Positions 3,639-47,076 of a DNA stretch of 64,000 nt are shown here, piece after piece. How positions within the stretch are numbered: the first letter of the stretch is position 1; each line of letters opens with the position of its first letter. The stretch spans positions 248,001 to 312,000 of the forward strand of contig NZ_LT984805.1 in NCBI RefSeq assembly GCF_900250115.1. The letters run 5' to 3'. The translations under genes and the position numbers were made by a program. The notes under the pieces were generated by a model. The model did no database searches, was not told the DNA's origin, and worked only from the letters and a program-made list of their open reading frames with translations. This DNA is from Cupriavidus taiwanensis (lineage in GTDB: Bacteria > Pseudomonadota > Gammaproteobacteria > Burkholderiales > Burkholderiaceae).

Positions 3639-4156
3639 ATGGCCCTACGAATCTCCAAGACACTGATGGTCGTTGCCATCGCGCTCTTTGCCTCTTTGGT
3701 CGCGTTTAACAATATAACCGATTACTTTACAAATTTCGTCTTTATCCGTCATGTCCTTCTAATGGACACGACCTTTCCAAGTAGCAGAAACATGTATCGA
3801 ACTATCACTTCGCCAATTCTGCATCATGTTGCCTATGTGTGCATTATCACACCTAGAGACTGTAACGGCGGTTTTTTGCTGGATGGGTAGCAATCGCTTG
3901 TGGTGTGCCCGGCATGATTCCCACATGGCCTTTCAGCGCGCGAAAGGCTTTGCCAACGCCGGGCTGACGCTAGGTTTTTTGAACATTGCAGGTTGCGTTC
4001 ATGTCGATTGGAGGGGAATGGTTCGGTATGTGGATGTCGAAACAGTGGAATGGGATACCAGATGCGTTCCGATTTTTTATCACGATCCTGTCAGTGCTGA
4101 TCTTTGTGAGCCAGGAGAATGATGCTTTAAAAAACCACGACAGAACCGGCCTATAG
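3639..4156 (+). pseudogene. DUF2165-like small membrane protein, frameshifted
   Basis: Joining three frames restores a DUF2165-like integral membrane protein of about 170 residues: MALRISKTLMVVAIALFASL, then FNNITDYFTNFVFIRHVLLM, then LETVTAVFCWMG..., and finally GEWFGMWMSKQWNG and FRFFITILSVLIFVSQENDA. One frame change lies near 3850 and another near 4000, so no single frame covers it. Its function is unknown even in intact form. It stands alone between IS elements and is probably a dead gene. The family call is from memory of the motif pattern. Confidence 0.6.
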
Positions 4157-34827: not shown

Positions 34828-35277
34828 ATGTTGTGTCTTGTTGGAGCGGGATGGGAGGGCCGTAGGGTGCGCGCCAGAATACATCTACGGGCCCGAAGTA
34901 CTGCGGCAGAGTCGGAAGTGGAGATCAATCTGGCCACGTGGCCCACGGTCGATGAGCAAGCCCTGCCAGAGCCTCAGCGCGTGACCTTTCTTGCCCGCGT
35001 CAGCGCGGTTCGGCTCTATTTGAATGGTGCCGATGGCAAGCATATTCGCGAGAAGGCGGGCATCAGCCGTGGCCAGGTGTACCGCCTGCTGACCGAACGT
35101 TGCCTGGCGCCGCATCCGGACGGTCGTATCTATGGCTGGCCGCGAGCGAATCGCCCCGAGCAGCTATCATGGGATTATGGTTCGCCCTTCTCCGCTATCG
35201 CCCGGTCCGCGCGAATGCATCATGGCCGTCCGCAGCTACAACTTCAGGTGCAAGCGGAGACAACTTCAGGTGTGTGA
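34828..35277 (+). pseudogene. N-terminal fragment of a large Mu/TnsB-like integrase
   Basis: The segment EVEINLATWPTVDEQALPEP, then ADGKHIREKAGISRGQVYRL and LTERCLAPHPDGRIYGW reads like the leading HTH part of long plasmid-borne integrase/transposase proteins (DDE, several hundred residues). After IYGW the text stops resembling a protein, and no catalytic core follows before the stop at 35277. I regard it as truncated. The family call is tentative. Confidence 0.45.
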
Positions 35278-35320
35278 GCGGCGTGCGCTGTGAAAGTGAC
35301 GTAAGAACCGGTGGATGGCC

Positions 35321-35631
35321 TTACCTGATAACCCACATTATCAGGCTTGAATTTTTACGGGATTTACCGGGTTTCTGAGGCGGCACTTGGGAAAACCGGG
35401 GATGGCGGAGGTGCCGGAACCGGCGCCACAAGGCCCGCAGAGCCACAAGGCCCGCAGACACGCGGCGCTGACACCGCTTGAGATCCGCCACGTGTGCGGC
35501 GATTCTCACAGTGTAGCCGAAAATGGCGTCGCTGCCCCGCCTGCGACGCCACCTGAATACCCCTTCCCGACTGTCATTCATCCTCGCGCGCGCCGCGCGG
35601 AAAGCGTCATCCCGCCATTATTATCAGGTAA
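35321..35631. repeat. Perfect 11-bp inverted repeat upstream of the recombinase gene
   Basis: TTACCTGATAA at 35321-35331 is the exact reverse complement of TTATCAGGTAA at 35621-35631. A third TTATCAGG at 35338-35345 makes a local palindrome with the first (CCTGATAA, six-base gap, TTATCAGG). The last copy lies 30 bases before the recombinase ATG. They may be recombinase core or operator sites; the enclosed DNA has no recognisable gene. Confidence 0.5.
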
Positions 35632-35661
35632 GATAGGCTTGCTGCCGTTCTCTTCCCTGCC

Positions 35662-37512
35662 ATGGCCCAACATAACCTCGTCGCTGCCGACACCCCGCGT
35701 TATACCCGCGCCGACTTCACGGCGCTGCGCTTCCGGCTCAACCGCATCCCGACCGAACAGATCCTGGCGCGCGTCTATGACGAAGAGGCGCTGCACGCCG
35801 CCGGCATCGACACCGCGGCGCAACTCGAAGCCCGGCTCGATGCCATGCGCGATCACCTGGTCGAGCGCGTCTGCCTGAGCAACCCGTACCTGTCGGCGAG
35901 CCTGGCGGACGCGCGCCGCTTCAACAGCTGGCCGAAATCGGCCATCGACTATCTGGTGCGTGCCGCCGATCAGGACTTTTCCGCGCCGCAGCCCGACGAC
36001 CCGGTGTCGGCCTGGCTGCGTCCGATCGTGTTCCGGGCGCTGCGGCACGAGCACATCCAGACGCTCGGGCAACTGCACGCCTACATCGCGCTGCGGGGCC
36101 GGCGCTGGTACCTGCCGGTGCCGCGGCTCGGGGCCGGCAAGGCGCGCGCGATCGAGCGCTGGCTGCAGTCCCAGGCGGCGACGCTGGGGCCGCTCGCGGT
36201 CGTCGACGACACGCCGCAGGCAGCGTTGGTCGAGCTGGGCCCGGATCTCGCGCGCAAGCTGGTGCCGCTGGAGCAGATGGGACGGGTCGTGGCGATGTTC
36301 GACGGCAGCGAGGGCCGCAACCGGGCGCCAGGTTCCTGCCTGATTGCCGCGCGAAACGACCTCGAGGCCATCCAGGCCTACCTGTATCGCTTCCGCGACC
36401 GCAACAAGACCGCGCGCGCCTACCAGAAGGAGCTGGAGCGCTTCCTGCTCTGGTGCGTGGGCGTGCGCCGCATCGCGCTGTCGAGCGTGGGCGTCGACGA
36501 TTGCGAGCGCTACAAGGATTTCCTGGCGCAGCCGGATCCGTCCTGGGTCGGCCCCAAGGCGCCCCGCAGCTCGGCCCGCTGGCGCCCCTTCGCCGGCGCC
36601 CTCAAGCCGGAATCCCAGCGCTACGCGGTACTGGTGCTGCGTGGCTTCTTTGCCTGGCTCGTGGGGGTGCGCTACCTGGGCGGCAACCCTTGGCTGCTGG
36701 TCCCGGATCCGTTGACGGCGCGCCGGGAGGTGCCGATCGCGGTCGAGAAGGCCTTGCCGGGGCAGCTATGGACGGCACTGGTGCAGCCTGGTGGCATCCT
36801 CGACCAGCTCTGTGCGAAATGGCCCGCAGTACCGGTGACCGCGCCGCTGACCGCAAAGGATGCCGACGCGCCCGGTGCCCAGTACCGCCTGGCGCGCGCG
36901 GCCGTGCTACTGCTCGGTTGCAGTGGCGCACGCCGCGAAGAGGCGGCCGGCGCGCAGCGCTGCCACCTCCAGCCGGTGCCGGAGCAAGCCGGCATCCCCG
37001 CTGGCCTGTGGGAACTGGCGCTGCTCGGCAAACGCAGCAAATGGCGCACCGTGTTCCTGCCGGCGCGCGCCATCGACGCGTTGCGCGCGCACTGGGCCGA
37101 CCGCGGCCACGATTTCGAGAACGCCGATCAGGCGTTGGCGTTGCTCTCCCCGGTGGTGGTGCCGTCGACACGTACTGCCCAGGCGAAGCATCTCAGCTTG
37201 ACGGACGGCGAATCGGTCCTCACTGGCAAGGGCTTCTCACCGGATGGCCTGTACCAGCTATTGACGGCGACGCTGCAGCGCATCGCCGACGACGCCTCGC
37301 TCCCCATGACCGAGCCAGAGCGGGACCTGTTGCGCCGGGCTGCGCCTCACGCGCTGCGGCATACGTTTGCTACTCATGCGGTGGCCAACGAGATGCCTGC
37401 GGACGTCCTCCAACGGCTATTAGGGCACGCCTCACTGCAAACGACCTCTTTGTATGTCCGAGCGGAACGCGCGCGCGGCCTCGCTGCGGTGTCGAAGCTC
37501 TTCCCCAGTTAG
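35662..37512 (+). CDS. Long tyrosine site-specific recombinase
   Basis: 616 residues, longer than XerC/D or phage integrases. An N-terminal region of about 250 residues (LSASLADARRFNSWPKSAID..., HIQTLGQLHAYIALRGRRWY) precedes a SAM-like core-binding domain (YQKELERFLLWC) and the catalytic domain: first Arg in GCSGARREEAAG, HxLRH as HALRHTFATHA, GH as LLGHASLQTTSLY with the nucleophile Tyr at about residue 598. It may resolve plasmid dimers or move an element; it lies next to the putative centromere, and the inverted repeats at 35321-35631 are candidate sites. Confidence 0.88.
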   Translation: MAQHNLVAADTPRYTRADFTALRFRLNRIPTEQILARVYDEEALHAAGIDTAAQLEARLDAMRDHLVERVCLSNPYLSASLADARRFNSWPKSAIDYLVRAADQDFSAPQPDDPVSAWLRPIVFRALRHEHIQTLGQLHAYIALRGRRWYLPVPRLGAGKARAIERWLQSQAATLGPLAVVDDTPQAALVELGPDLARKLVPLEQMGRVVAMFDGSEGRNRAPGSCLIAARNDLEAIQAYLYRFRDRNKTARAYQKELERFLLWCVGVRRIALSSVGVDDCERYKDFLAQPDPSWVGPKAPRSSARWRPFAGALKPESQRYAVLVLRGFFAWLVGVRYLGGNPWLLVPDPLTARREVPIAVEKALPGQLWTALVQPGGILDQLCAKWPAVPVTAPLTAKDADAPGAQYRLARAAVLLLGCSGARREEAAGAQRCHLQPVPEQAGIPAGLWELALLGKRSKWRTVFLPARAIDALRAHWADRGHDFENADQALALLSPVVVPSTRTAQAKHLSLTDGESVLTGKGFSPDGLYQLLTATLQRIADDASLPMTEPERDLLRRAAPHALRHTFATHAVANEMPADVLQRLLGHASLQTTSLYVRAERARGLAAVSKLFPS

Positions 37513-37830
37513 TGCGCTGCCCCGGGAACGGATGCCCCCCGACTTGGCGCGGACGCCGCAGCTTGTGTGCACCAGCCGTCTTGCACGGCGACCGCTGTTG
37601 GCTGCTGCGTATCCCCTCATTCGTCTGGGTGGTCACGGCGGGCCGTGGCGACTTCTGGGATAGCGGCGCCAAGGTCAGCATTCCACATCGGCGAGCCGGC
37701 CATTTGATCCCATGCCCACGGAAGCATCACCACGTCAAGGCTAACGATTGGCGCGAGCAACGTCATTGCGACCTCAGATTCCAATTGGCTGGTAGGCACG
37801 TCGCGCGGGTAAGCCGATCCGGGGCGCGGC

Positions 37831-39501
37831 TGTCCCGAGTTGGGACAGCCGCCGGGGAGAGTCGCCGCTCTCCGAGTCCGAGCAACGCAAGCACATCATA
37901 GCGACTTGAGAAGGTTGCGTCCTTGATAGGCGCCGCTTACCGAGCGGCCTGCGCCGGCACCATATCGCCATTGTCCCAACTTGGGACAGCCTCTCCAAGG
38001 GTACGGCGGCGGAACGCCCCGTTTTTTTGACGCCGCTGAACAAATGCCCCAAGTCGGGACAGTCTTGGTTGCCGCGCGACATAGGTCTGCCGCCAGCGTC
38101 GGTGTAATGTGCGAAGCCGACCTGTAGGTGGGCAGGGCCATGTCGTCCCGGGGGACGGCCGCGACGCTCGCCCGAAAGAGCGCTGGTCGCGGCTGCGGCA
38201 GTAGCCATCCCGGTGTCCCAAGTCGGGACAGATTCTTGCGCGTTCCCCCGCGTGTCACCTTGCCGCCGGCCAGGTCATTGCCGACGGGACAGAGTCTGGA
38301 TGGATCGCACGGCGCCCAGCCCAGCTTCGGCGCGAGGCGCCGCGCCTGACCGTGGCTCCTTCTGGCAGCCGCCATAGCGACGACTTTGTTGACTCGGGAA
38401 AGCCCGTGCACGGATACAGTGATGGAACAAATCGCTTCGATGATCTCCCCTCAAAAAGTATCCCGAGTTGGGACAGTCTCAGCGGCGGCACGACATAGGG
38501 TCGCCGGCAGCGTCGCTGCGACGTGCGATTCTGACCTGCAGGTTGCAGCGGCCATTGTGCTCCTTGGGACCGCAGCCAGACTCGTCCGAAACAGTGGTGG
38601 CCTCCAGCTGCGGCATCTCCGCGTCCCCAGTCGGGACAGTTTCGCCAACGTTTCACCGTGTCCCACGTTGCCGCCTGCCGGCTTACCTCTCGAGGCCAAG
38701 TCCACTACTCCTCGCCATCATTACCGACGCGCGCGTGAGCGCGAGTTTCCTGGCCGCTACCATCCCCACTTGGGACAAGTGCCGGCGGTATGACCGTGAA
38801 CGTTCAATGCGAGCGCATCACTGCAAAACGGTAGGGATCGCGCTTTGGGTTGGCATCGCTGGCAGAGCCCCTAAGACGTGGTGTCCCTAGTTGGGACAAC
38901 CTCGGCTGCGTTGGAATGCGCAAGAAACTGTCCCGACTTGGGACACCGGGAAGGCTACAGCCGCGGGTGCGACCGCCGGCTTTCGGGCCAGCCTTGCTAC
39001 CCGGAGGGGCGGGGCCATTTCCCGGACGCCCGCGGCTGGCCGCTCGCCGCCGCGTTGGCCATGGGGCCGAGTTGGCCGGATCGCCCAGAGTTTCGCCACT
39101 TCGGCGAACCACAGCGTTGTCCCACATCGCGCCTGACGGCATGAGGCCTTTCGGCCGCGGCCGGTTTGACTGACCGGCTTCGCTCGTCGCGTAGCGACGC
39201 TCGCTCAAATGCCTCAGCGCTTACCGGGGGTGTCCCAACTCAGAACAGTCTCTGCGTCCGACCCTCCGCCCACCGCACTATTGTCGCGGCGAACAAGGCG
39301 CCAATGCCCCGCCGCCGAGGCTCCTGTGCGACTGTCCCAACTTCGGACAGCCGTCGCGATGCAGCGGTCGCACAGCTCCTCGCACATTCATCCAGTCCTC
39401 TGCACTGCAGATTGCAGGTACGCTTCCCGCGTAGCATCCCTCCTGCAATGCGCCGGACCGAGCAGAAACTCCCATGGGCCTGTCAGTCCCAAATCGGGCC
39501 A
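37831..39501. repeat. Twelve-copy array of a 17-bp palindrome, putative centromere (parS)
   Basis: The consensus is TGTCCCRASTYGGGACA. Copies start at 37831, 37972, 38045, 38214, 38459, 38622, 38761, 38882, 38929, 39231, 39333 and 39485; the last two to three are degenerate and a few half sites (TGTCCC or GGGACA) lie between. Each is a near-perfect dyad with one central base. No convincing gene lies in 37513-39600. The array is downstream of parB on the other side of an ISL3 insertion, as sopC lies downstream of sopB in plasmid F. Centromere function is inferred; an incompatibility or silencer array is the alternative. Confidence 0.7.
38045..38880. repeat. Two imperfect tandem units of about 410 bp within the palindrome array
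   Basis: From 38045 and from 38459 the DNA repeats beyond the palindromes: GCGACATAGG... versus ACGACATAGG..., then CGACCTGTAGGT versus TGACCTGCAGGT, CTCGCCCGAAA versus CTCGTCCGAAA, and GCTGCGGCAGTAGCCATCCC versus GCTGCGGCATCTCC. Each unit contains three palindromes. A third, inverted, related segment begins at 38929 (GACACCGGGAAGGCTACAGC, matching the reverse complement near 38195-38225). This suggests growth of the array by duplication. Confidence 0.6.
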
Positions 39502-39606
39502 TCTGTCCAATCGCTGGGAGCCGCCGTTACAGAGCGAGTGAAGGCGACCCTGCCCGATACGGTAGCACCGCGTAGCAGCCGATTAGCCGATCGCGGCCAA
39601 AAAAAA

Positions 39607-40909
39607 GGTTCTTCGCAGAAAACCGTGGCCCGAAAGAGCACATTTTGTATGCTGATGTCTGTTTCTTCAGGTATCAGGGGGATGTGTGCTGGATCGCAAG
39701 ACGCTGCAAGCACTGGGTTGCTGGAAGGGCTACCGGCTGGAGCGCGTGGAATGGCCGGAGGGAGAGAGCCGTACGCTGTCGTTGTACTTGAAGCCGGTCA
39801 GCAAGGTCATGCATTGCGAGGAGTGTGGCGCGCGCTGCCATCAGGTGCATGAGACAGTGGTCAGGCGAGTCCGGGACCTTCCGCTGTTCGAGTATCGGGT
39901 CGTACTGCACGTGCCGCGCCGGCGCGTTTGGTGCGACCGTTGCGGCGGTCCGAGGCTGGAGCGGCTGGAATGGCTTGGGCGCTACCAACGCGTGACGGCC
40001 CGCTTGGCCCAGGCTTGCGGCCACTTGTTGCGCCACTGTACGGTGCAGGCGGTGGCGGCCTTCTACGATCTGGGCTGGCACACAGTTAAATCGATCGATA
40101 AGGCTCGCTTGCGTGAGGCAGTGGCCGAGCCGGACTGGTCCAATATCCGCTACCTGGCCATGGATGAGTTCGCGCTACACAAGGGGCATCGATATGCCAC
40201 GGTGGTAGTCGACCCCATTGGGCGGCAGGTGCTCTGGATCGGACAGGGGCGCTCACGCGAGACCGCCCGAGCCTTCTTTGAGCAGCTCCCCGCCGGCGTT
40301 GCGCAGCGCATCGAGGCCGTCGCCATCGACATGACGACCGCGTATGAGTTGGAGATCCGGGCGCATTGCCCGCAAGCAGAGGTGGTCTTCGACCTGTTCC
40401 ACGTGGTAGCTAAGTACGGGCGTGAGGTCATCGACCGAGTACGGGTGGATCAGGCCAATCAGCTGCGGCACGATCGGCCGGCCAGACGGGTGCTCAAGTC
40501 CACACGCTGGCTACTGCTGCGGAATCGGGAGAACTTGAGCGTCCCCCAGGCGGTTCATCTGGATGAGGTCCTGGAGGCGAACCGGCCATTGCTGACAGTC
40601 TATCTGTTGCGCGACGAGCTAAAGCGGCTATGGTTCTACCGCCGCCCGGCGTGGGCGCAAAAAGCTTGGGAGCAATGGTGCGAGCAGGCTCGGCAGAGCC
40701 GAATACCTGCCCTGGAGTTGTTTGCGAAGCGCCTGCAAGGCTACTGGCATGGCATCTTGGCCCGCTGCCGCCACCCATTGAACACCAGCGTGGTCGAAGG
40801 CATCAACAACACCATCAAGGTCATCAAGCGCCGCGCGTACGGCTATCGCGACGAGGAATACTTCTTCCTCAAAATCCGCGCAGCCTTCCCCGGAATTCCT
40901 CGATGAACC
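39607..40909 (+). mobile_element. IS-D copy 1 (ISL3 family)
   Basis: About 1303 bp with ends GGTTCTTCGCAGAAAACCG and CGGAATTCCTCGATGAACC. It is flanked by runs of eight or more A on both sides, matching the 8-bp duplication of ISL3 elements. The target was the T-tract (on the minus strand) of the terminator after parB. Confidence 0.88.
39686..40906 (+). CDS. ISL3-family transposase (IS-D copy 1)
   Basis: 406 residues from GTG, preceded by AGGGGG. The N-terminal zinc-finger domain has CEECGARC and CDRCG; an HTH follows (HCTVQAVAAFYDLGWHTVKS); the DDE-type core shows D in YLAMDEFALHKGH, D in VVFDLFHVVAKYG and E in SVVEGINNTIKVIKRRAYGY. It is complete and identical in sequence to the copy at 50804-52024. 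Confidence 0.92.
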   Translation: MLDRKTLQALGCWKGYRLERVEWPEGESRTLSLYLKPVSKVMHCEECGARCHQVHETVVRRVRDLPLFEYRVVLHVPRRRVWCDRCGGPRLERLEWLGRYQRVTARLAQACGHLLRHCTVQAVAAFYDLGWHTVKSIDKARLREAVAEPDWSNIRYLAMDEFALHKGHRYATVVVDPIGRQVLWIGQGRSRETARAFFEQLPAGVAQRIEAVAIDMTTAYELEIRAHCPQAEVVFDLFHVVAKYGREVIDRVRVDQANQLRHDRPARRVLKSTRWLLLRNRENLSVPQAVHLDEVLEANRPLLTVYLLRDELKRLWFYRRPAWAQKAWEQWCEQARQSRIPALELFAKRLQGYWHGILARCRHPLNTSVVEGINNTIKVIKRRAYGYRDEEYFFLKIRAAFPGIPR

Positions 40910-40936
40910 AAAAAAAAACCCGCCATTTGGCGGGCC
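40910..40936 (-). terminator. Intrinsic terminator of parAB, T-tract at the IS junction
   Basis: On the minus strand CCCGCCAAATGGCGGG is followed directly by nine T, 22 bases after the parB stop. The T-run is also where IS-D copy 1 inserted, and its duplication keeps enough T residues for the terminator to work. Confidence 0.85.
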
Positions 40937-40957
40937 TTCTTGTCACCTCGGGTCAGA

Positions 40958-41929
40958 TTACTTCGGCTGGTGGTGGAACGTCTCGCTGATCAGCTGGCGG
41001 ATCTGGTTCTCCAGCGCCTCGCTCAGTGCACCGAACTTGATCTTGACGGTGAAGCCGTTGGCGTCCTTGGTAATCGAGCCGGCATGCTCCTTACCGGCAA
41101 AGAACTTGTCGATGCTTCGCTCGCTCGCTGAATTGGCGGCATCAACTCGACGGGTTGCCAGCGCTTTTATCGCATTTGCTGCTTTGCCCTGGTCCATCTT
41201 CCCCGATGCCACCAGTGGCCAGATTTCCTTCGCCGCTGCATCGCCCGCCTCGCCATACTTGCGGATGGTCATAACGATCGCTTCGGCGGCCGTCCCGCCG
41301 AGCAGGGTAGGCTGAAGATCCAGATCCCGGATTACATAGTCGGGGAGTTGGGCAAAGCTGAGGAATCGGTAAAGCCCGCTTCTGGACAGCCCGAGAGCCT
41401 CGGCCAGACGAGCGCGAGACGGGAATTCCTTCTCGGTCTGACGAATGGAAAGCGCAATCTCATAGTCAGAGAGATCATCACGGCTGACGTTCTCCACGAG
41501 AGCCAGCACCGCCATATCGGCGTCAGACGGCTCAGCGACCACCGCTTTGATGGTATCGGCGCCCAGCATCTTGTGGGCCCGCCACCGGCGCTCACCGGCC
41601 ACGATCTGATAACCCATTTCGGCGCGGCGTACCACGATAGGCTGCATCAACCCAACCTCTCGGATGGACTCCGCGAGGTCCGCGAGTTTTGAATCGTTGA
41701 AGACGCGCCGAGGCTGCCAGGGGTTCGGCACGATGTCAGCGACCGCGATTAGGGACGCAACCCCGGCAGCCTCGAGCTCCTGCACGCGCATCTGTGCCAC
41801 GGCCAGTGCACCAGCCAACCCAGGTGCGGTCTGCGTGCGATCGTTACGCTTGATCTCGTCCTTCTGAATTGCCGACGTCTTCCGGATACCAGCCGTCTTC
41901 GCCAATAGCTGTTCTCGCATATTGCTCAT
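40958..41929 (-). CDS. parB: Plasmid partition protein ParB
   Basis: 323 residues from MSNMREQLLAKTAG. The start is set by GGAGGA and an ATGA overlap with the parA stop; an ATG 15 bases upstream is less likely. The ParB/Spo0J N-terminal CTPase domain shows IVPNPWQPRRVF, YQIVAGERRWRAHKML and LALVENVSRDDLSDYEIA; the HTH is in RLAEALGLSRSGLYRFLSFA; a short C-terminal dimer region ends the protein. It binds the centromere and stimulates ParA. The array at 37831-39501 is the natural binding-site candidate. Confidence 0.92.
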   Translation of the reverse strand: MSNMREQLLAKTAGIRKTSAIQKDEIKRNDRTQTAPGLAGALAVAQMRVQELEAAGVASLIAVADIVPNPWQPRRVFNDSKLADLAESIREVGLMQPIVVRRAEMGYQIVAGERRWRAHKMLGADTIKAVVAEPSDADMAVLALVENVSRDDLSDYEIALSIRQTEKEFPSRARLAEALGLSRSGLYRFLSFAQLPDYVIRDLDLQPTLLGGTAAEAIVMTIRKYGEAGDAAAKEIWPLVASGKMDQGKAANAIKALATRRVDAANSASERSIDKFFAGKEHAGSITKDANGFTVKIKFGALSEALENQIRQLISETFHHQPK

Positions 41930-43137
41930 TGCGCGCTCCTCCATTTTTCTGCGTAGATTTCATCCAACCATCGGCAATAGTCGACAATCGGCTGGCGCAC
42001 CCGCTGCAGCGATTTTGCAGCGCTATGGGTACTACTCACGTCGAATACCGTTGAGAAAGCCAGGGCCCCAGTGCTCATCACAGAACTAGCGGGCACTTCA
42101 ATTGAATGCAGCCAGCTCTCATAGGCGCTTTGAGCCCATGCCCGAACAATCGGTGCAGAGGACGTACGCCCATAGTCGACCCTCGACAGCAGCAGCGACA
42201 CGAAGTCGTACTTCTTGTCCGCTTCGTATTTGATGAAGCTCTTGGAGACATCGGAGAACAGGCGCCAGAACGACAGCGAGCTGATGAAATCCAGGTTCTC
42301 TGGCACCATTGGCATGACCATGGCATCTGCCGCCAGCAAGGCGTTCAAGTTCATATAGGAAAGCGAGGGCGACGTGTCCATCAGGATGTAGTCGTAGTGC
42401 TTCCGTAACGGCTCCAGTCCCTCCCTGAGAACAGTCCAGAAACGGAAGCCCGGCTTGACCTTCTGCATGGCAGGCAAATGGAACTCCGCGCCGATCAGTT
42501 CTGTGTGCGCGGGAATGAGATCCAGGCCGTCCCAGTATGTCGATTGCACTTGGGACAGCAAGCCCCCCTCGATCTGCTGATCGTAGATATACGGCAGAAC
42601 GGAGTCTTCTGGCGAGACGTCCTTCTCGGCGTAGAGACCACACAGCTCGGAAAGCGACGCCTGTGGGTCTAGGTCCACCACCAGCACCTTTCTGCCGCGC
42701 AGCGTCAGTCCCTGGGCGAGGCACATCGTTGTCGTAGTCTTGGCCGAACCGCCCTTCAGTTGGGCCGTGATGATGATTTTCCCTTCGGGCTCCCGCGTAC
42801 CGGTGACCAGCGGTGTCTGATAAATGTCCGACACCTTCTGCACCCACGTGCGCGCCTCCTCCAACGTGAAGGTCCGCGTGCGTCCTGTTCCCGCTGCAGT
42901 ACCTGGCGGCAATTCCCCATCGCCCTTGGTGGCAAGGTATTGAACCTGGGAATGTGAGATGTTGCACATCTCGGCGATCTCCCCGGTCTTGAATACCGGG
43001 GCGGTTTTTCTAGGACGCGGCGCAAGGATCGTCTGACGCAGTTCATCCGTGAAAATGGTGACCTTTTCCGCGAACTGGGATATTTGCTCAAGCGGGACAG
43101 TCCGATCGACTGCAGGAAGTTGGCTCGTTTTCACCAT
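41926..43137 (-). CDS. parA: Plasmid partition ATPase ParA
   Basis: 403 residues from MVKTSQLPAVDRTVP; the frame extends 29 codons upstream with a weaker start. An N-terminal MerR-like winged HTH (FKTGEIAEMCNISHSQVQYL) marks type Ia ParA proteins that also repress their own operon. The deviant Walker A is QLKGGSAKTTTTMCLAQ, followed by VLVVDLDPQASLSELCG and YDYILMDTSPSLSYM. It works with ParB to position plasmid copies. It is divergent from repA, across the iteron origin. Confidence 0.93.
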   Translation of the reverse strand: MVKTSQLPAVDRTVPLEQISQFAEKVTIFTDELRQTILAPRPRKTAPVFKTGEIAEMCNISHSQVQYLATKGDGELPPGTAAGTGRTRTFTLEEARTWVQKVSDIYQTPLVTGTREPEGKIIITAQLKGGSAKTTTTMCLAQGLTLRGRKVLVVDLDPQASLSELCGLYAEKDVSPEDSVLPYIYDQQIEGGLLSQVQSTYWDGLDLIPAHTELIGAEFHLPAMQKVKPGFRFWTVLREGLEPLRKHYDYILMDTSPSLSYMNLNALLAADAMVMPMVPENLDFISSLSFWRLFSDVSKSFIKYEADKKYDFVSLLLSRVDYGRTSSAPIVRAWAQSAYESWLHSIEVPASSVMSTGALAFSTVFDVSSTHSAAKSLQRVRQPIVDYCRWLDEIYAEKWRSAQ

Positions 43138-43904
43138 TCTGAGGTTTTTCCGCAAAATTCTGGAAAGCTCAGAATACAAGAAACGCTTGAGCAATGCTTT
43201 ATAAACTGTTGTTTTTGAAACCAACTATCCTAAAAAACCACAGTTTTGCTCAAACTTTAGGCGAATTAGGGCGTCTTGCCCTGCACAACCCCATACAGGC
43301 GGTGTCAAACAAGCGGCCCCCGGGCGTATGCAGGCGCGGCAAACCAGCACAAATGACCTCACCATCCCGGCCAATCCAGTCAATCGTGATGCCAATTGCC
43401 TGGATGCTAGAAGCCTAGTTCTGGGATTATGCACAATTGACCTCACCTTGCCGGTCGAGCCGTGGGCCGCCTAGGCCATTGACACCACCTCGCACGGCGC
43501 TTCGACGGGAACGCTCTGCTTGGATTTTGCCTCGTTCAAATGAGGTCGCGACGGCCGGATTCACCCTGCATCGACAATGGTGAGGTTCATTGTGCGTGCT
43601 TCGTACGCGCCTTATTGAGGTCGCACAATGAACCTCACCCTGCAGGAGAAAAGCCTGCCAACGTCTTGCACAACGGACCTCACCTTTACTGCAGCACAAA
43701 AAACCTCACCATCAAAGACTTGTGTGACGACCGGCATGAAGGATCCCCGGCAGAGGGAGCCTTGGCGCTTCGTGAAGAATTCTGCAGCCGGCCCAGCGTG
43801 ATGTTGGTGCCGTCGGCTGGGCGACCCTCCACGGCAGGACGAGGTCTGCGTTGCCCGCGCATCTGACGAGCCCCAGCACAGTCGGCGATCTTGTGAGCGT
43901 GGAC

Positions 43905-43985
43905 CGTGCCTGTTTGTTTAGTTTTTTGAGAAGTAAACACACCGACAAACAAACGGAAAAAAGCAAAGCCCTTTCTAATCAAACA
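43905..43985. other. AT-rich segment of the origin (probable DNA unwinding element)
   Basis: About 80 bases with T-runs and A-runs (TTTGTTTAGTTTTTTGAG, GAAAAAAGCAAAG) in otherwise GC-rich DNA, located between the two iteron groups, as expected for origin melting. A near-match to a DnaA box, TGTGGATAT (one mismatch to TGTGGATAA), is at 44141-44149. Confidence 0.6.
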
Positions 43986-44285
43986 CTAGATGCCAGCAAG
44001 GTGAGGTGCAATGTGCCAAAGGTGAGGTGTGTTGTGCCACGAACGTGCGGTTTGATGTGCGAGCAAGGTGAGACTCGTTGTTCCGCAAGGTGCTAGTTCT
44101 TGTGCCGAGGCAGTCAAGGTGAGGTACGTTGTGCGGACGCTGTGGATATCCCCGCTGACGCTAGGCTAGATGCCAACTTAGCCACTGCCCGCCTTGCGCA
44201 ACGGTGAGGTCCATTGTGCGTAGGGTGAGGGTCGTTGTGCTGGGACCGCAGGGCAAGGTCAGGGCCGCTGATGCCTGGCTTTTAT

Positions 44286-44315
44286 GGTGAGGTTCATTGT
44301 GTTGAGAACCTCACC
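44286..44315 (+). promoter_or_regulatory. Probable repA operator (inverted iteron halves)
   Basis: A forward iteron GGTGAGGTTCATTGTGT is followed after three bases by the inverted half GAACCTCACC. Iteron plasmids commonly autoregulate rep through Rep dimers binding such inverted half-iterons; the spot just before repA fits that role. Function is inferred. Confidence 0.6.
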
Positions 44316-44363
44316 ATCACGTGCTAGAGTCACCCCAGCCTAAAAAGAGGGGAACCACAAGTT

Positions 44364-45761
44364 ATGGCGGCCGAGAATCCGGTGGAGATCAAAACGAGGA
44401 CCACGCCTCGGCAAATGGCGCTCGCATTGTTCGAAGACATGTTTGACCTCGGCACGTCCATCAACGAGGCGAACCGCGAAATCGGCTATCAGCGCAATAA
44501 CTTCTTCACGGAAATCGTGAACATGGGGCTAGCGGCGCGACGGTTCCTCGATGCCGCCTACTTCATCGTCGCCCAAGAGCCGGAAGTCCCAGATCAGTAC
44601 GACGTTGAGCTGAACTACTTCAAATGGCTGATGCGGTACGACAGCCGCAACCTGAAGCATTTGCGCACCATCGCAGACGAAGCGCAGAACGCGAAGGTCC
44701 GCGTCACCAACACGCCGTCAGACCGTGAGCCGGCGGAAGATGATATTTGGGTGCAGGTGCAACTGATCGGTATGGTGGCCATGCATCGTGGCCGCATCCG
44801 CTTCGACGTGCACCACAGCCTGATCCCCCACATTCGCGACCCACGCAAGTCCCACTGGCTAAGCCTGCGGATTTCGACGGCATTTACGCGCAGCCTGGCG
44901 CGCGCCATCTACGACAAGGTCTTGCCGAGCGTGCCGGCAGGGCGCACCGACTGGATCAAGCTGGACGAGATGCGGACCTGGCCAGGGAAGATGGGCGCGA
45001 ACGCCAGCATCTTCAAATATTTCAAGCGCGACTGGCTTGAGCCAGCGGTCCGGGAAATCAATGAGATCTCGGACATCGAGCTGTCCTACGAAACTCGGAC
45101 GGAATCGACCTCGTCGAAGAAGGTTGACCGCATCCGCTTCCAACTCCAGCGCAAGGACACGGCCGATGCGGTGATGGCGAGCCTATCTGACGCGAGCCAG
45201 ATCTACAAGATCCTGAAGGACGAGTTCAACCTGTCCACGCGCCAGTTCACCGAGATCTCCGAGAACCGGGAAGCATGGAATGACGACCGCATCCTGCAAG
45301 CGATCGAGTACACGCGGTTCAAGCTCAATCGGGGCCAAGTGAAGAAGAGTCCGTCCGGCTATCTGATGAAGGCGTTGCGCGACAACTGGCGCATGTCCGA
45401 AGCTGAGCGGACCATGGTTCAGGTCCAGACGAAGCTGCTCACGGAGGAAACGGAGAAGGAAGCCGTAAAGGCAGCAGTGAAGTCATCCGTTGAGCACAGC
45501 GTGGCGTCGCGTGATGAAGAGACGCGTGCACGCATGAATGAAGAATCAGCCCAAGGTCGCGCGCATTTTACGTCGGCTGATACCAAAACTCGCAGGGAGT
45601 TTATTCGGGCTTGGCTGGCGTCGCGCGAAGGCAAGCTTGTACTGCGGCGGATGAAGCTGGAGCCTGCATCCGTCTCCGAAGACGTCATCCTGACGACGCC
45701 AGATTTGTCCTGGTACTTGGGACAGTTCGTGTTCGGCCGCGTGGCACTCAGTCGCGCATGA
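44364..45761 (+). CDS. repA: Plasmid replication initiator (Rep_3 type)
   Basis: 465 residues, ATG after an AGAGGGG ribosome site. Two winged-helix halves are recognisable: an N-terminal part (FLDAAYFIVAQEPEVPDQYD and FKWLMRYDSRNLKHLRTI) and a C-terminal part (KMGANASIFKYFKRDWLEPA followed by VREINEISDIELSYE), the typical Rep_3 pattern. A charged tail (residues about 350-420, with EETEKEAVKAAVKSS) extends it. It binds the adjacent iterons to open the origin. Its last 14 bases overlap the end of the convergent HTH gene. Confidence 0.88.
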   Translation: MAAENPVEIKTRTTPRQMALALFEDMFDLGTSINEANREIGYQRNNFFTEIVNMGLAARRFLDAAYFIVAQEPEVPDQYDVELNYFKWLMRYDSRNLKHLRTIADEAQNAKVRVTNTPSDREPAEDDIWVQVQLIGMVAMHRGRIRFDVHHSLIPHIRDPRKSHWLSLRISTAFTRSLARAIYDKVLPSVPAGRTDWIKLDEMRTWPGKMGANASIFKYFKRDWLEPAVREINEISDIELSYETRTESTSSKKVDRIRFQLQRKDTADAVMASLSDASQIYKILKDEFNLSTRQFTEISENREAWNDDRILQAIEYTRFKLNRGQVKKSPSGYLMKALRDNWRMSEAERTMVQVQTKLLTEETEKEAVKAAVKSSVEHSVASRDEETRARMNEESAQGRAHFTSADTKTRREFIRAWLASREGKLVLRRMKLEPASVSEDVILTTPDLSWYLGQFVFGRVALSRA

Positions 45762-47076
45762 CACAGCGGATTTCTTCGCGTTGATCGACGCTGTCGCTAT
45801 CGCAGGTTTTTGATTCCTGCGCTGACTTCCGTAGCATGCCATAACCTGTTCGGGGTGTAGCCAGTTCCTTGGATATGCCGAGGCCAAAGCAATCTAACTC
45901 CTGAGATGCGTTCCTGCCGTGCACCAGCCCGCGGATAGTCTCAATAGCCGCTCGCGCCACTACCGACGACGGCTGCCCCGGCTGCGTTAACTGGATGGGG
46001 CCGGAAGAGGACCCACACGCTACTCTGTCCATCTCAAAGAGCCAGGCGCGCGCCTGATCGTGCCCCACCGAACTCCGGCGACCGTTGCGGTCAATAAACA
46101 CGATCGACGCTGAATCGACTTCATAGGTCGACCCATCTGGTGCTGAAACCCGCTTGCCTCGGTATCTCGCCACCAGCTCGGCAATCTGCTGCCGCTCTCG
46201 TGTGGCCCGAGCCTCGGCTGCTCGCCCTGCATCTTCACGGAGCTTCCGCGTCCGGACTATATGTCCGTAGTCAACAGGCATCTCGAGGAGCGACTTGAGG
46301 TACGCGAACAGTTCTCGTCCCCGGAGCGGCCTGAGCGCATTGCCAGCCGCCGAGACGACGTCTGACAAACGGTGGCCCGTGGTTCTCGCAAGCTTCATCA
46401 GTAGGAACAGCGCGGACATCTTTAGGGCTTGGTCGCGTACCAAGGGCGCCAGGTCCATCGGCACCGCGCGACCGTCAATCCGCAAAAAGGATCCCGGCCC
46501 CGGATGTTTCTTCGTAGAAGACTGCATGGTCTTGTTTACGCCATTCACCGGTGCGAGACATGTAGAGGCCCCCGACTCATCAGAGCGGGTCGGAACGTGG
46601 ATAGTGGACTGAACCTGCAGGCTGGTGATTCCAATGCATCGGAGCAACTTTGAGGAGAACCCGATCCGCCCAACGACCTCAAGCTGCGCCCTGGTGCGCC
46701 GCTGCCGTTCACGCTTAATAAGCCCGGCATCTTCAAGCGCACCAAGCGCTCGATAGACCGTGGCCTCACTCATCCCGAGGTGTTGCGCAATCGTTGCCTT
46801 CTTTATGAAGGCGAGCGCAGACGGATCCTTCTGGTTCAAAGCGAAGCGGACGAGCGTGGCCAGTACCTGACGATTCGTGATGTGCAAAGTCCGAAGTCCA
46901 TCGGACTCGTAGACCAGCGCGATTGCTCTAAGAATCCGCTCAGGCAGCCGGCCGGCATCGAGCCTTGCTGCATTGGGTTGCAGGCCTTCGGCGGCGACAG
47001 GTTTAGGAGCATGCGACGCATCGCCGCACTTTGTTGTTCTTCGGGCAATAGGAAGCCCGTCGAAGCTACATGTCAT
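45748..47076 (-). CDS. HTH protein, possible replication accessory factor
   Basis: 442 residues. A winged-helix region at about 80-125 (KKATIAQHLGMSEATVYRAL followed by GALEDAGLIKRERQRRTRAQ) is preceded by a helical segment and followed by a basic central part (RELFAYLKSLLEMPVDYGHI, REDAGRAAEARATRERQQIA). I recall similar proteins beside repA on other Burkholderiales plasmids, but I cannot name a defined function. It is convergent with repA with 14 overlapping bases, so the two genes may affect each other's expression. The ATG at 47076 is assumed; starts further in are possible. Confidence 0.65.
   Translation of the reverse strand: MTCSFDGLPIARRTTKCGDASHAPKPVAAEGLQPNAARLDAGRLPERILRAIALVYESDGLRTLHITNRQVLATLVRFALNQKDPSALAFIKKATIAQHLGMSEATVYRALGALEDAGLIKRERQRRTRAQLEVVGRIGFSSKLLRCIGITSLQVQSTIHVPTRSDESGASTCLAPVNGVNKTMQSSTKKHPGPGSFLRIDGRAVPMDLAPLVRDQALKMSALFLLMKLARTTGHRLSDVVSAAGNALRPLRGRELFAYLKSLLEMPVDYGHIVRTRKLREDAGRAAEARATRERQQIAELVARYRGKRVSAPDGSTYEVDSASIVFIDRNGRRSSVGHDQARAWLFEMDRVACGSSSGPIQLTQPGQPSSVVARAAIETIRGLVHGRNASQELDCFGLGISKELATPRTGYGMLRKSAQESKTCDSDSVDQREEIRCVMRD

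Follow-up and report, generated by a model that had tools for sequence, protein, structure and literature searches.

The centromere of plasmid F, sopC, lies downstream of the plasmid's parB gene, sopB. According to PMC6238139, it consists of twelve 43-bp tandem repeats with ten 16-bp inverted repeats. In the Burkholderiales, secondary chromosomes and plasmids carry the Bsr parS sites, which PMC5450999 describes as 16-bp palindromes with a central CG, and which are found on c3 and pBC of B. cenocepacia, in R. pickettii 12D and 12J and in B. vietnamiensis G4. A third point of reference is the pair formed by ParB and Noc, where the switch of specificity, as PMC7383237 reports, includes an Arg to Gln change by which guanine gives way to adenine. 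Here we set beside these systems an array of twelve palindromes from a Burkholderiaceae plasmid, and we argue from gene content, from the distribution of the sites and from their joint change with the ParB recognition helix that it is very probably, with a probability of roughly 0.92, the centromere (parS) of that plasmid's type I ParABS system, to whose sites the neighbouring ParB would bind.

Layout of the locus

The window, by which we mean the whole 64-kb stretch of DNA that was analysed, covers positions 248001-312000 of contig C3 in a three-contig genome of 7.0 Mb. Its ParB and array DNA are 100% identical to those of a 578-kb C. taiwanensis plasmid from Mimosa nodules (NZ_CP016951.1), and its elements run in the order tyrosine recombinase, palindrome array, ISRta1, parB, parA, iteron-like repeats and rep:

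35662-37512, plus strand: tyrosine recombinase with DUF3701, bordering the far side of the array; a neighbour, outside the centromere
37831-39501, no strand: candidate parS array, 12 copies of the 17-bp palindrome TGTCCC-RASTY-GGGACA, start-to-start spacing 47-302 bp
39607-40909, plus strand: ISL3-family insertion sequence, ISRta1 by the annotation of the identical plasmid; transposase at 39686-40906
40910-40936, minus strand: intrinsic-terminator-like hairpin and T run directly after parB, read from sequence
40958-41944, minus strand: parB, a 328-aa ORF (40958-41929 from the start annotated in the identical plasmid); ParB_N domain, GERRxR and ENxxR motifs, and a helix-turn-helix (HTH) with S189, G190 and R193 (328-aa ORF numbering)
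41926-43224, minus strand: parA, an ATPase (AAA_31) with an N-terminal extension; 432-aa ORF from TTG, for which the identical plasmid annotates a shorter start
43347-44304, no strand: iteron-like repeats near GGTGAGGTNCATTGTGC, in both orientations, between parA and rep
44364-45761, plus strand: replication initiation protein (Rep3_C), with the same annotation in the identical plasmid

What defines a type I ParABS system is a Walker-type ParA beside a ParB, and here an AAA_31 ATPase and a ParB_N protein are indeed encoded by adjacent genes, the parA product matching the RepA and SopA models at scores below their curated cut-offs. The GERRxR and ENxxR motifs, invariant in 20 aligned ParBs, and an HTH stretch that aligns to Spo0J/ParB structures suggest the nucleotide-binding motif and DNA-binding fold of the class, and a cluster of palindromes lies near parAB. 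By gene content and layout, then, the system is of type I, and the array is its candidate parS, considered cognate on the strength of its co-change with the recognition helix. The iteron-like repeats are the probable oriV, and the recombinase may possibly represent a dimer-resolution system that travels with rep-parAB-parS.

The preliminary description of this DNA placed the array downstream of parB, correctly, and passed over the insertion sequence lying between them. ISRta1 splits parB from the array and is no part of the centromere; its insertion point is the T run of the hairpin behind parB, and its target duplication is an 8-bp A8 (39599-39606 and 40910-40917). The A tract beside the parB terminator, taken together with this duplication, indicates that the element entered between parB and the array. 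In two draft genomes, G184 and G231, parB and the array are found on separate contigs, as expected if assembly breaks at ISRta1.

Other identities for parts of this locus were tried and rejected. An Rfam scan of the array gave no match at the gathering score and a tRNA search of 35000-46000 found none, which disposes of a known RNA family or tRNA in the array, and a phage origin of the window ParB was set aside after no match at E<=1e-30 was found among 50,697 phage records. We also record that an integrase or tyrosine recombinase is annotated beyond the parS region in eight plasmid relatives (L005, L006, L013, L021, L026, L027, L028 and L030), and that a second ParB_N protein is present on the window's contig (C3:158152-158433, in a 606-aa open frame).

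The palindrome array

The individual copies, none of which has a strand, are as follows:

37831-37847: parS copy 1, 0 mismatches
37972-37988: parS copy 2, 0 mismatches
38045-38061: parS copy 3, 1 mismatch
38214-38230: parS copy 4, 0 mismatches
38459-38475: parS copy 5, 1 mismatch
38622-38638: parS copy 6, 1 mismatch
38761-38777: parS copy 7, 2 mismatches
38882-38898: parS copy 8, 0 mismatches
38929-38945: parS copy 9, 0 mismatches
39231-39247: parS copy 10, 2 mismatches
39333-39349: parS copy 11, 1 mismatch
39485-39501: parS copy 12, 2 mismatches

The figure of twelve copies given in the preliminary description is right provided that two mismatches are allowed: the stretch between 37513 and 39606 has 5 exact sites, 9 at up to one mismatch and 12 at up to two, and 200 shuffles of it averaged 0, 0 and 0.12, with no shuffle above one site. 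In the 64-kb window the exact TGTCCC-N5-GGGACA occurs five times, always inside the array, and tolerance of two mismatches yields 14 places, twelve of them at 37831-39501 and the others at 3752 and 27378, while 100 whole-window shuffles gave a mean of 2.32 and at most 6. Throughout the 7.0-Mb genome the exact motif is confined to the array, and one mismatch adds a single further place, on contig C2.

The arms of the motif stand as originally proposed, whereas the freely varying five-base spacer does not: in the alignment of the twelve sites the spacer is constrained near R-A-S-T-Y, with its second A and fourth T present in 12 of 12 copies, a T or C at its last base in 12, a G or C in the middle in 11 and an A or G at the first base in 9, and the site is therefore a 17-bp odd-centred palindrome. 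Core positions C3-C5, A7 and T9 (numbered from 0) are identical in all twelve, and seven of the copies are imperfect. The irregular spacing of 47-302 bp was borne out as a start-to-start measure, as was the embedding of some copies in longer imperfect repeats, direct and inverted (among them one of 66 nt at 74% and an inverted one of 67 nt at 87%); a tandem period was sought in 37000-45000 and none was found.

With an insertion sequence sitting between parB and the array, a mere 5 of 12 sites perfect and irregularly spaced, and another ParB_N protein on the same contig, it might be argued that the array is a relic, degraded by ISRta1 and by mutation, and that partition now runs via another locus or has been lost. 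We regard this as very unlikely, given that the five core positions are kept in every copy and that the reading frames of parA and parB are open. Moreover, the related plasmid locus L005, in which no insertion sequence is annotated at this place and the first site lies about 130 nt past parB, shows 6 sites at up to two mismatches in an array about as loose, and one consensus F repeat is enough for partition (Biek and Shi 1994, as cited in a passage of PMC9499535).

Arrays of the same kind in related replicons

A DNA search with the array returned one record, the identical plasmid, from which it follows that the array evolves too quickly to be traced by its DNA and that relatives have to be reached through the protein. 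With tblastn, 77 plasmid records were found in which one place covers at least 80% of the window ParB, and the protein was present in 113 of 398 genomes at E<=1e-60. Among 399 genomes of the order, five hold it at E<=1e-50, two of these being in the window's family, and the ParB type is thus largely limited to that family. Our locus set comprised 167 members, namely the window, 26 plasmid loci and 140 stretches from family genomes, some of them mutual copies; 30 short loci (L031-L060) were left out of use.

We searched these loci without any catalogue of known words, asking for palindromes (6-bp arms, spacer 0 or 1) repeated without mismatch in the 3 kb that follow parB. Such a palindrome was found in 125 of 164 loci (three were too short), compared with 12 of 1640 dinucleotide shuffles. 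The top palindrome was odd-centred in 92 of the 125 and even-centred in 33; it was off-frame in L115 and L162, the framed word coming second in L115. The window and its two identical copies are missing from the 125 because their arms vary between copies, and were found by a search with mismatches. The number of copies per locus ranges from two to dozens, and two regular arrangements deserve mention: in pBB1 of Cupriavidus necator N-1, 48.5 units of 39 bp stand in tandem beside parB (L007 2352-4235), and in genome G326 there are 59.8, again with a 39-bp period and beside parB (L065 1116-3445).

At up to one mismatch, 23 plasmid loci hold 197 sites in 66,748 bp downstream of parB and 0 in the 144,091 bp upstream of it or inside it, a count from which L021, L026 and L030, having no assigned type, are omitted; as each type was picked from the downstream side, the upstream zero is the informative number. 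It bears directly on the proposal that ParB uses the array mainly as an operator or silencer, in the manner of a KorB-like regulator, and that the true centromere lies elsewhere. KorB is, after all, among the ParB relatives with solved structures, and some ParB proteins do regulate genes. Even so, we think this a long shot, since the sites are absent from those 144 kb, the array sits past the terminator of parB in a stretch where no gene is annotated, and the tens of copies in the regular arrays of some relatives suit a centromere better.

The site travels with the ParB type

Among 60 genomes of the window's genus, 23 carry the ParB at E<=1e-60, in 19 of them at an identity of at least 84%. 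The 15-bp site GTCCCRASTYGGGAC occurs in 15 of the 60, namely in 14 of the 19 close-ParB carriers and in G351, whose single isolated site is the sole case among the other 41 genomes. Twelve of the 14 have the site near parB on the same contig and two (G184 and G231) on a different contig; the five close-ParB carriers without the exact 15-mer (L018, L066, L067, L068 and L070) keep TCCCAA-N-TTGGGA arrays. The preliminary description named, as the outcome that would count against it, a palindrome spread over many replicons lacking this parB, and 14 of 19 against 1 of 41 is quite another picture. Its central proposal, a parS-like centromere for the neighbouring ParB, gains support in that the site, one isolated case apart, is confined to the ParB type and changes together with the recognition helix.

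Some genomes house more than one replicon of this kind. We counted 38 coresident pairs in 28 genomes, 37 of which are of different type (with TCCCAA and TCCCGA merged); the one pair sharing a type compares with a mean of 4.9 in shuffles, and 3.1% of 5000 shuffles gave one or fewer. In this sole pair, L118 and L194 of genome G312, the two sequences do not differ over the 3,472 nt running on from parB, and their contigs measure 793,818 and 793,876 bp; a duplicated assembly may be the cause. The ParBs of coresident replicons are for the most part far apart in sequence, and a shared type is also rare between distant ParBs from separate genomes. The pattern is modestly beyond chance and confounded by ParB distance, and hence consistent with selection for compatibility rather than an independent proof of it.

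Pairing of helix residues with half-site bases

The inner half-site is named here by its consensus, T1-C2-C3-C4-A5-A6, of which base 5 varies in the window. Across the family T1 and A6 are kept and the inner bases change, which generates the words TCCCAA, TCTAGA, TCCATA, TCAGTA, TGCCTA, TGTCGA, TCTCCA, TCCCCA and others. Types were assigned from a catalogue of recurring words, two off-frame words excluded, wherever at least two sites occurred at up to one mismatch. This gave a type to 157 of 167 loci and left ten with no assignable site, two of them with less than 300 nt of downstream DNA. There were 147 non-redundant ParBs with sites, 114 odd-centred and 33 even-centred; the even-centred clade (TCCGAATTCGGA and kin, 33 of the 147 tips) has another register and stands outside the rule set out below.

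In the odd-centred tips residue 193 and base 4 agree in 114 of 114 cases: R or K goes with C4 (76/76), and Q with A4 (28) or G4 (10), making 38/38; most of the clades with Q193 have A4, the others G4. All 22 tips with G2 have K or R at residue 189 (22 of 22), and the other 92 have a different residue there. The helix alignment had been inspected before these residue-base tests. Among the columns variable enough to score, 193 comes out on top for base 4, with a normalised mutual information of 0.68 (0.36 for the next column). For base 2, column 189 (0.38) is not at the top, column 101 reaching 0.48, though column 189 explains 87% of the entropy; for bases 3 and 5 no single reader residue was found in the 114 tips. 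When mutual information was computed against whole site types, the lead was taken by columns such as 325 and 165, which are probably clade markers, and column 193 emerged only base by base and branch by branch.

The tips are of course related to one another, and the evidential weight accordingly falls on switches along the tree, for which columns 176-200 had been left out. Scored as C or another base, base 4 undergoes five switches; residue 193, scored as Q or another residue, also undergoes five, and the branches concerned are the same. One of these switches is a return to C in the window's clade. The branch matching gives a Jaccard index of 0.71 for column 193 and 0.40 for the next best column, and 0 of 20,000 random placements match. 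G at base 2 and K or R at residue 189 each switch three times, on the same three branches. As for the position of these residues in the fold, in the alignment to 6t1f (Caulobacter ParB) residue 193 falls on chain position 167; matching the G-K-S-R stretch to G170-K171-S172-R173, from the portion of PMC7383237 that gives these residues, makes residue 193 equivalent to N178 and residue 188 to R173, both of which are named there as parS contacts in the crystal structure. We note in addition that distant ParBs (55-60% identical; L023, L105, L027, L115 and L171) re-use TCCCAA, the word of the window's clade, with D or E, not G, at residue 190.

The rule was written down before the hold-out loci were fetched. 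These were 60 places hand-picked from one further genus, outside the loci already used, with look-alikes of used plasmids skipped and some lower places left. The catalogue-free search found an odd-centred recurring palindrome in 36 of the 60, 34 of them with a ParB sequence that had not been seen, and in these 34 the prediction held for base 4 in 33, for base 2 in all 34 and for the frame in 33. The one miss, L234, gave a word out of frame; when one mismatch is allowed, TGCCTA, which lies closer to parB and agrees with the prediction, comes out best. The remaining 24 loci showed no recurring palindrome or an off-frame even one, and when they and L234 (25 in all) were searched at up to one mismatch, 10 showed a fitting framed word and 15 none. 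Downstream of the ParBs with R189 and R193 (L240-L245), a framed recurring palindrome was absent in six of six, even at up to one mismatch. The hold-out mostly resamples known clades, and the one new word that it holds, TCACCA (three loci), fits the rule.

These joint changes also bear on how the tyrosine recombinase is to be seen. Since the parS region has a recombinase next to it in the window and, by annotation, in eight plasmid relatives, and since arrays of binding sites are also known from resolution and replication systems, the palindromes might be thought to serve the recombinase at 35662-37512, or to be replication iterons, rather than to bind ParB. The probability that we attach to this is close to nil: the bases of the site switch with the ParB helix, a separate set of iteron-like repeats lies between parA and rep, palindromes are kept in L010, L011, L012 and L025 with no recombinase annotated (plasmid gene tables being incomplete), and L021, L026 and L030 have a recombinase and no assigned palindrome.

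In the related plasmids compared, two bases of the site change together with two ParB residues, and site and protein are to that extent readable against each other. A bolder formulation, to which we give an even chance of being right, is that in this ParB family the identity of a replicon is spelled out in a compact code, with a fixed frame T....A-N-T....A whose inner bases are read by a few positions of one recognition helix, 193 for base 4 and 189 for base 2. On this formulation base 4 has been re-specified at least five times, once back to C, and base 2 three times, and distant ParBs have taken up the same word again, so that a centromere's type might be predicted and a single residue with a single base pair might suffice to switch incompatibility.

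Proposed mechanism

What the sequences provide for a candidate centromere is the array itself, its restriction to the flank of one ParB type and the way in which site and helix change together; binding, CTP loading, spreading, stabilisation and incompatibility are features that we infer from the known class. In the mechanism that we propose, a ParB dimer would sit on each 17-bp palindrome, with one helix-turn-helix per half-site, R193 pairing with C4:G and the uncharged residue 189 with C2. CTP-dependent ParB clamps would load at several sites and, by spreading, build the partition complex, which would be the target of ParA at division. More sites should mean more loading, and the irregular spacing would be of little consequence for a clamp mechanism, because a single consensus copy of the repeat supports partition in F (the same work of Biek and Shi, again through the passage of PMC9499535). 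Replicons of the family would keep the frame and swap the inner bases together with residues 189 and 193, and coresident replicons could in this way be kept distinct.

Significance

In the literature consulted, few pairs have been used to study how ParB and parS exchange partners without loss of function and how replicons sharing a cell remain compatible. The 147 non-redundant natural ParBs with assigned sites, together with the hold-out, now furnish a dense series with simple residue-to-base pairings, and this makes the question of partner change directly testable by swapping one residue and one base pair. The array also represents a candidate centromere for a large group of Burkholderiaceae plasmids, including plasmids of root-nodule isolates and megaplasmids of more than 1 Mb, and we anticipate that the tables could aid replicon typing and the design of stable, compatible plasmid tools for Cupriavidus and Paraburkholderia.

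Comparison with known systems

Our literature search, which included the core site words, returned no title or abstract dealing with this centromere, and Bsr work of 2012 in J. Bacteriol. may mention some of the sites. With the chromosomal parS TGTTTCACGTGAAACA and the Noc NBS, the system shares the ParB fold and a specificity that, as PMC7383237 describes it for those sites, is switched by few HTH residues. It differs in the sequence and centre of the site, and in that the base-tracking residue 193 corresponds to N178, not R173. The genome that carries the window has four TGTTTCACGTGAAACA sites at up to one mismatch, all on contig C1 and none on the plasmid contig, and a site of chromosomal type was rejected on these grounds.

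With the Bsr parS, as portrayed in PMC5450999, several features are shared: both are palindromic ParB sites, candidate ones in the window, from the same bacterial order, specific to their replicon and diverging between replicons. The sites of the window's family are, however, odd-centred, or AT-centred and even in one clade, with no central CG; the 17-bp site centred on R-A-S-T-Y thus falls outside the CG-centred definition and was not assigned to the Bsr type. In the one Bsr member compared, pBC, the ParB is 29% identical to that of the window over 189 aa.

The comparison with sopC drawn in the preliminary description holds for position and copy number and fails for spacing and sequence. Both systems have about a dozen inverted repeats downstream of parB, bound by ParB in F and predicted to be so here, but the window shows no tandem repeat in 37000-45000, has a spacing of 47-302 bp where sopC has regular 43-bp units, and is built on a 17-bp odd-centred palindrome, so that the array was not classed as sopC-type. 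Some relatives come nearer, with regular arrays of 39 bp: those of pBB1 and G326 are like sopC in layout and several times longer.
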